Position numbers and translations under genes: made by a program. A stretch of 64,000 bases of DNA, from positions 87,906 to 151,905 of the forward strand of contig JAGXRZ010000040.1 of the NCBI GenBank assembly GCA_018335585.1, in the 5' to 3' direction. The DNA comes from Selenomonadales bacterium (lineage in GTDB: Bacteria; Bacillota; UBA994). The notes below the pieces were generated by a model. It worked only from the letters and a program-made list of their open reading frames with translations, ran no database searches and had not been told where the DNA came from. Positions 14,930-15,776 of the stretch are shown piece after piece. Position 1 is the stretch's first letter. Each line of letters opens with the position of its first letter.

Positions 14930-15007
14930 GCGGGGGCAATCATGAATCAGGAATCGTGAATCATGAACTGGGAGAGAGAGCTCCGCTGGGCACTGAGCAC
15001 TAGGCAC
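14930..15007. repeat. Degenerate 7-bp tandem repeat array 1
   Basis: Between the ribU leader and the 22-residue-repeat gene, the sequence runs in 7-bp steps: ATCATGA, ATCAGGA, ATCGTGA, ATCATGA, ACTGGGA. After a short gap come CGCTGGG, CACTGAG, CACTAGG, CACCCCT. No coding potential is seen. Further arrays with other 7-bp units are near 15.6, 32.0 and 38.6 kb. Confidence 0.7.
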
Positions 15008-15010
15008 CCC

Positions 15011-15502
15011 TTAGGGGTTTGCAGCGGCCGGCGGGGAGCGCCTTGTAAACACGTAGTAATGGTAAGTCAGAACAACCAACAACGCAGCAAGTAAAGGCGG
15101 GCAGTCCTCTACTTTCGCGTTTACGTCATGACCGCCAAACTGCCCGCCCAGCCTCCCTACCAAGTGGCCATTTACCTGCTGTAAAGCACAACTAAAGCCT
15201 AGGTATTCTCCGCCAATCCGACCGGTGACTTCTTCTCCAATCTGCTTCAGGGCAATGTCCCTGCCGACTAGTTCCCCACCAATCCGACCGCCAAGTTCTA
15301 GACCCACCATGCAGGCATACACACTTTGCCCATGAAACGCTCCTCCTAGACGCCCTTCAATTTCGTCTCCGCTAATACTAAGGTTAACGTCTGCGCCGCG
15401 CATCATGCCGCCTATGCGCCCCGTGACCGAATGTGCGCCAACGGCGCAGTCGATATCAAACCCTCCCAAGAGACCCCCAACCCGACCTCGTACAAAACCC
15501 AT
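15011..15502 (-). CDS. Unrecognised tail-anchored protein of six 22-residue repeats
   Basis: 163 residues. After MGFVR there are six tandem units of exactly 22 residues, each starting GR[VIL]GG: GRVGGLLGG, GRIGGMMRG, GRLGGAFHG, GRIGGELVG, GRIGGEYLG and GRLGGQFGG. Each has a Gly at position 9 and mostly alternating polar/hydrophobic residues after it. A single hydrophobic segment near the C-terminus (LLAALLVVLTYHYYVF) is followed by RRSPPAAANP, suggesting a tail anchor. The regular short Gly-rich repeat suggests a beta-solenoid or stacked fold (inference). No signal peptide. GAGGTGG precedes the ATG. I do not recognise the family and give no function. Confidence 0.75.
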   Translation of the reverse strand: MGFVRGRVGGLLGGFDIDCAVGAHSVTGRIGGMMRGADVNLSISGDEIEGRLGGAFHGQSVYACMVGLELGGRIGGELVGRDIALKQIGEEVTGRIGGEYLGFSCALQQVNGHLVGRLGGQFGGHDVNAKVEDCPPLLAALLVVLTYHYYVFTRRSPPAAANP

Positions 15503-15536
15503 TCGTGTTCATCCACCTCTCAGATTAGTCAGCGCG

Positions 15537-15776
15537 CAGAGCGAGCATTGAGCATTGAGCATTGAGCTATGAGGGGGCGCACAGCGCTCAGCACTCAGCC
15601 TTTAGGCTTTAGGCTTGAGGCATTAGAAGCGGTGAGCTTTGAGCTTTGAGCTGTGCCCGAAGAGGAAACGGATACCGCGGCGACGCGCTCTACTGAGCAC
15701 TGGGCACTGGGCACCGGGCACCGGGCACCGGGCACTTCTTTACCAGGAGCCAGGAGCCAGCAACCCCTCGTCCTCC
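15537..15776. repeat. Degenerate 7-bp tandem repeat array 2 with conserved core
   Basis: A 240-bp non-coding stretch of several 7-bp arrays: AGCATTG x3, CTTTAGG x2 plus variants, GAGCTTT x2 plus variants, and GCACTGG/GCACCGG five times (15694-15735). The block at 15679-15694 is, on the minus strand, CAGTAGAGCGCGTCGC, a core shared with the arrays at 32.04 and 38.56 kb. The last 24 bp (15753-15776) recur exactly at 47653-47676. The remainder up to 15948 shows nothing I can assign beyond the helicase ribosome-binding site. Confidence 0.75.

Follow-up and report, generated by a model that had tools for sequence, protein, structure and literature searches.

A window of 64,000 nucleotides from a Selenomonadales bacterium contig contains a minus-strand open reading frame (ORF), running from 15502 down to 15011 and opening with ATG, whose 163-residue product carries six similar units and, C-terminal to them, a single hydrophobic segment (approximately residues 134-152). 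The original prediction read this product as a tail-anchored protein with a short beta-solenoid or stacked sheet on the cytosolic face of the membrane. The locus raises two questions: whether the ORF belongs to a gene family already described, and whether its hydrophobic segment is a membrane anchor or part of the fold formed by the repeats.

The gene and its six repeat units

The motif GR[VIL]GG occurs six times in the 163-residue protein (residues 6, 28, 50, 72, 94, and 116), always at steps of 22 residues; in 20,000 shuffles of its residues, the motif count did not exceed two (mean 0.02). Motif positions and shuffles thus confirmed the six exactly spaced units claimed for this protein, as well as the glycine at position 9 (counting from the G of GR), which was invariant in all six. 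The average identity among the units was 35%. The absence of insertions and spacers held for this protein and for some other members with exact 22-22-22-22-22 spacing, but not for the relatives in general, in which the spacing was 22 in 130 of 189 cases, 24 in 31, and 21 in 13, with a range of 18-28. The coordinates of all features are given in Table 1.

Table 1. Features of the six-repeat gene and its product, in window coordinates
Feature	Position	Strand	Basis
CDS, six-repeat protein, 163 aa, stop codon included	15011..15502	-	ORF; homologues in other genomes
Ribosome-binding-site-like AGAGGTGG, 10 bases 5' of ATG	15513..15520	-	Upstream sequence
Repeat unit 1, residues 4-25, VRGRVGGLLGGFDIDCAVGAHS	15428..15493	-	AlphaFold2 strands E2-8, E15-21
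Repeat unit 2, residues 26-47	15362..15427	-	AlphaFold2 strands E25-31, E36-44
Repeat unit 3, residues 48-69	15296..15361	-	AlphaFold2 strands E47-52, E59-66
Repeat unit 4, residues 70-91	15230..15295	-	AlphaFold2 strands E69-75, E80-88
Repeat unit 5, residues 92-113	15164..15229	-	AlphaFold2 strands E91-97, E102-110
Repeat unit 6, residues 114-135	15098..15163	-	AlphaFold2 strands E113-119, E124-132
C-terminal hydrophobic helix, residues 136-155, proposed barrel core	15038..15097	-	AlphaFold2 H136-155, hydropathy
C-terminal tail, residues 156-163	15014..15037	-	Alignment; pLDDT about 50 in both models

Exactly six units were found in 41 of the 42 aligned members, which span Firmicutes and Deinococcus. 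The sole exception (L068) lacked its first unit through a shifted frame; EINGRVGGAIGG could still be read by eye just upstream in another frame. Copy number usually varies in open repeat families, and a fixed number of six is as a closed ring requires. At variable sites, identity was 0.30 between the same unit of different proteins versus 0.21 between different units of one protein. As units at the same position are more alike across proteins, the six-fold duplication appears to be ancient, with each unit having its own place.

GGAGG-like sequences were present 5' of most homologues too. Judged from sequence, the ORF is a real gene that is conserved in other species. Short tandem arrays of 7-base units flank it on both sides (14938-14967 and 15543-15760), with units that differ in sequence (AATCATG, GAGCATT, CTTTAGG, TGAGCTT, ACTGGGC, and CCAGGAG). 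When up to two mismatches were allowed, GAGCATTGAGCATTGAGC had 27 matches in the organism's own genome versus 0 for the reversed control; the heptamer repeats near the gene are a scattered family in this genome.

Distribution and descent of the family

Full-length homologues were found by whole-genome search in nine of 14 other genomes of the same class. In a sample of the phylum, 44 of 399 genomes had matches at an E-value of 0.001; the majority were full-length, with a small number weak or broken, and full-length relatives occur in roughly one in ten of these genomes. Carriers included Thermoanaerobacter wiegelii, a Tepidanaerobacter sp., and many Firmicutes bins. The yield of the contig scan depended on the query: a single protein found no locus, and an alignment found 17. 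Weak partial matches turned up in the organism's own genome and in related genomes (L002 and L019 among them), and appear to be fortuitous, in genes or reading frames unrelated to the family. No relative was found among viral contigs or phage records, and on this evidence a phage gene was rejected.

A tblastn search of plasmids detected distant relatives in Deinococcus radiophilus, D. proteolyticus, D. taeanensis, and D. deserti, and weakly in D. ficus. All Deinococcus copies are annotated as 'hypothetical protein'. The 163-residue protein and its D. radiophilus homologue were 32% identical over 148 residues, without a gap. In a tree of the homologues, most clustered with others of their taxonomic family, and the Deinococcus proteins formed a clade of their own. 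Because the tree largely follows taxonomic families, descent of the family looks mainly vertical, with many losses.

The genes were mostly single-copy and stand-alone. Two tandem copies approximately 27 bases apart were seen in one genome (G351, L082:5995-7004). Divergent or broken copies lay at L084:5950-6468, L085:5986-6363, L095:5995-6273, and L096:2098-2391; among these, G103 has a second copy that has degenerated, the copy in G331 looks decayed, and the frames in G160 and G234 contain stops or are truncated.

Database searches supported the earlier statement that no described family has this unit. The 163-residue protein had no match in Pfam at an E-value of 10, nothing significant in NCBIfam, PHROGs, or PDB sequences, and no match among the PADLOC profiles of known anti-phage defence; profile searches against these libraries matched no characterised family. 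The PDB profile search returned one chain only, unrelated (E-value 1.2), a viral fold library gave nothing significant, and a literature search for the GR[VIL]GG motif and for 12-stranded soluble barrels found nothing relevant. MORN repeats are also glycine-rich hairpins, of approximately 23 residues. They differ in consensus, variable copy number, and open sheet, and a Pfam scan of 38 six-repeat members detected neither a MORN match nor the fatty-acid-binding protein (FABP) family. The six-repeat family is genuine and is undescribed in the libraries searched.

Predicted fold and the C-terminal segment

AlphaFold2 was run on two members, the 163-residue protein and its T. wiegelii orthologue, with 38-39 homologues. 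Both models were confident (mean pLDDT 90.3 and 89.1, respectively; pTM 0.87 for both), and both consisted of twelve consecutive strands of 6-9 residues followed by one C-terminal helix of 20 residues. Structure prediction therefore yielded a confident beta-repeat fold and not disorder. The beta-solenoid or parallel stack proposed earlier was not recovered: solenoid proteins have parallel coils with approximately one turn per repeat, whereas each unit here has two strands, and the turns of 2-6 residues between consecutive strands in both models imply antiparallel hairpins, which in these models exclude a solenoid.

The strands are amphipathic. One face (unit positions 4, 8, 17, 19, and 21) was 94% hydrophobic and 0.7% charged; the fixed glycine at unit position 6 shares this face and was excluded from the 94%. 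The other face was 10% hydrophobic and 46% charged, and bears the invariant Arg 7 and Asp/Ser 16. The cysteines, suggested earlier as possible cross-links or metal sites, were conserved at most partly (position 19 in 24, position 96 in 21, and position 105 in 15 of 38 members) and are on the hydrophobic face, which argues against a surface metal.

One face of an open sheet of 12 strands is too large to be covered by a single helix, and from this we infer that the barrel is closed and the helix lies in its lumen. On the models, a closed 12-stranded barrel with its own C-terminal helix inside is fairly probable. The computed backbone radius of a 12-stranded barrel is approximately 10-11 Å, with room for one helix.

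The alternative closest to the original prediction is a beta-repeat domain, perhaps a barrel, on the cytosolic membrane face, with the helix in the membrane as a single-pass C-terminal tail anchor. The hydrophobic segment it calls for is present, with a Tyr cluster at its end together with basic residues. Many Firmicutes members have 17-22 uncharged residues in the segment and mostly favourable whole-residue octanol scores (down to -9.8), and in several of them, with 18-22 uncharged residues, the segment could span a membrane. The anchor role fared less well. The Kyte-Doolittle mean of the best 19 residues averaged 1.20 and only two of the 38 members from Firmicutes reached 1.6. The flanks of the segment carried a mean net charge of -1.9 on the N-terminal side and +1.4 on the C-terminal side, the reverse of the pattern required for an N-in tail anchor, and the Deinococcus segments contain E, K, R, or D, with unfavourable octanol scores (+5.8 to +11.5) that mark them as non-membrane. 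Thus, neither hydrophobicity across all members nor N-in flank charges, both features of bacterial tail-anchored proteins, were found in the family. With the helix in the membrane, either a hydrophobic sheet face would also stay exposed or the barrel would have nothing in its lumen, and the pLDDT of the helix equals that of the best strands (97 and 95 for the helix blocks of the 163-residue protein; the T. wiegelii equivalent is H138-157). AlphaFold2 may give membrane helices high confidence as well. Taken together, we consider a tail anchor rather unlikely.

A buried helix would explain the apolar middle of the segment, its variable length, and the charge tolerated near its ends. We infer that the segment is a poor membrane anchor and a buried helix. 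The tail that follows it is Ser/Gly/His-rich in the relatives.

Known barrels, possible function and significance

When both models were compared with solved structures using Foldseek, meander barrels of FABPs came first. Intracellular lipid-binding proteins (FABPs and cellular retinol-binding proteins) share with the models an antiparallel up-and-down barrel with a hydrophobic interior, and the six-repeat protein has their antiparallel meander with one hydrophobic face. The likeness is one of architecture only, with no solved barrel truly matched: E-values were at least 0.03 and not significant, and TM-scores were below 0.5 (0.31-0.48 among the top 50 matches for both models, at 5-18% identity). 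The matched proteins are from animals, with no sequence-profile match and no internal six-fold repeat. FABPs have 10 strands and a helix-turn-helix lid near the N-terminus. GFP-like beta-cans are also up-and-down barrels with a helix through the lumen, but have 11 strands, a central helix from mid-chain, and no repeats; they were absent among the fold matches listed.

These comparisons bear on a second alternative, an FABP-like barrel that binds lipids or other hydrophobes, with the helix acting as an integral lid or plug that is displaced by ligand or membrane contact. Nearly all of the best solved-fold matches were fatty-acid- or retinoid-binding barrels, and the inner face is hydrophobic. 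However, besides the low TM-scores and the missing sequence relation, the inner face has no conserved charged residue of the carboxylate-binding kind, and no cavity is left if the helix fills the lumen; we consider this alternative about as unlikely as the tail anchor. Still less probable is a soluble barrel that shelters its own helix until a signal releases it into the membrane; such a self-chaperoned, spring-loaded tail anchor would have a fold without a solved representative.

The NalP-type autotransporter translocator also has 12 antiparallel strands, and its pore of 10 x 12.5 Å is approximately one helix wide (PMC9289746). The six-repeat protein differs from it in having no signal peptide and strands of only 6-9 residues. 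NalP-type translocators are outer-membrane barrels with the hydrophobic face outward, exported by means of a signal peptide. A transmembrane beta-barrel was rejected for the six-repeat protein, given the missing signal peptide and a hydrophobic helix ill-suited to a polar lumen.

The reading we favour, and consider on balance probable from the models, is a soluble, cytosolic, plugged 12-stranded barrel that may serve as a peripheral binding module. The six 22-residue hairpins would form a closed, six-fold pseudo-symmetric up-and-down beta-barrel with the hydrophobic face of the sheet inward, and the chain's own C-terminal helix would fill the lumen as the core, with the six inward glycines (unit position 6) leaving space for it. 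Arg 7 and Asp/Ser 16 of every unit would form a polar girdle outside the barrel. The conserved residues are explained by this fold, and none of the conserved polar sites on the surface resembles a catalytic site. If the helix is inside, its Tyr-rich, basic end would emerge at the end of the barrel with the GG turns. In Firmicutes, the tips of these turns were hydrophobic at unit position 12 in 97% and at position 13 in 64%. The GG-turn end with its hydrophobic tips may dock reversibly to the inner membrane face or a protein partner; such docking, by a peripheral binding module and not an enzyme, is a tentative suggestion that we hold more weakly than the fold.

Gene neighbourhoods across the phylum had no shared partner and were conserved only within genera or families. 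On the plasmids of D. radiophilus and D. proteolyticus, a kynurenine-pathway gene of the cyclase family ends just within the start of the six-repeat gene, with a four-base overlap between the two (L115:3333-6486 and L116:3345-5728), and kynureninase lies nearby. The D. taeanensis protein has a DUF7662 domain with the six-repeat domain fused C-terminally to it (L114:4569-5438). Neither arrangement was seen in Firmicutes contexts.

A structural protein of the Firmicutes forespore or spore coat is the least probable of the alternatives. SpoIVA was present in 42 of the 44 genomes with the family versus 294 of the 355 without it (one-sided Fisher p = 0.017), but this test ignores kinship and related genomes are not independent; most of the SpoIVA-bearing genomes sampled lack the family, promoter patterns for sigma-E, F, G, and K were no commoner than chance upstream of 42 genes, and Deinococcus, which does not sporulate, carries the family.

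The architecture, that of an up-and-down barrel with a helix probably inside it, is already known; what appears to be new is the self-plugged version made of six hairpins. If the model is true, the family would provide a natural barrel of six similar hairpins around one helix, and a clean case both for the origin of barrels by duplication and for keeping a hydrophobic helix soluble. No library searched describes this family, yet approximately a tenth of the sampled Firmicutes genomes, as well as Deinococcus, carry it, and because these genes mostly stand alone in a single copy, in organisms that can be cultured (Thermoanaerobacter, for example), the model is testable.
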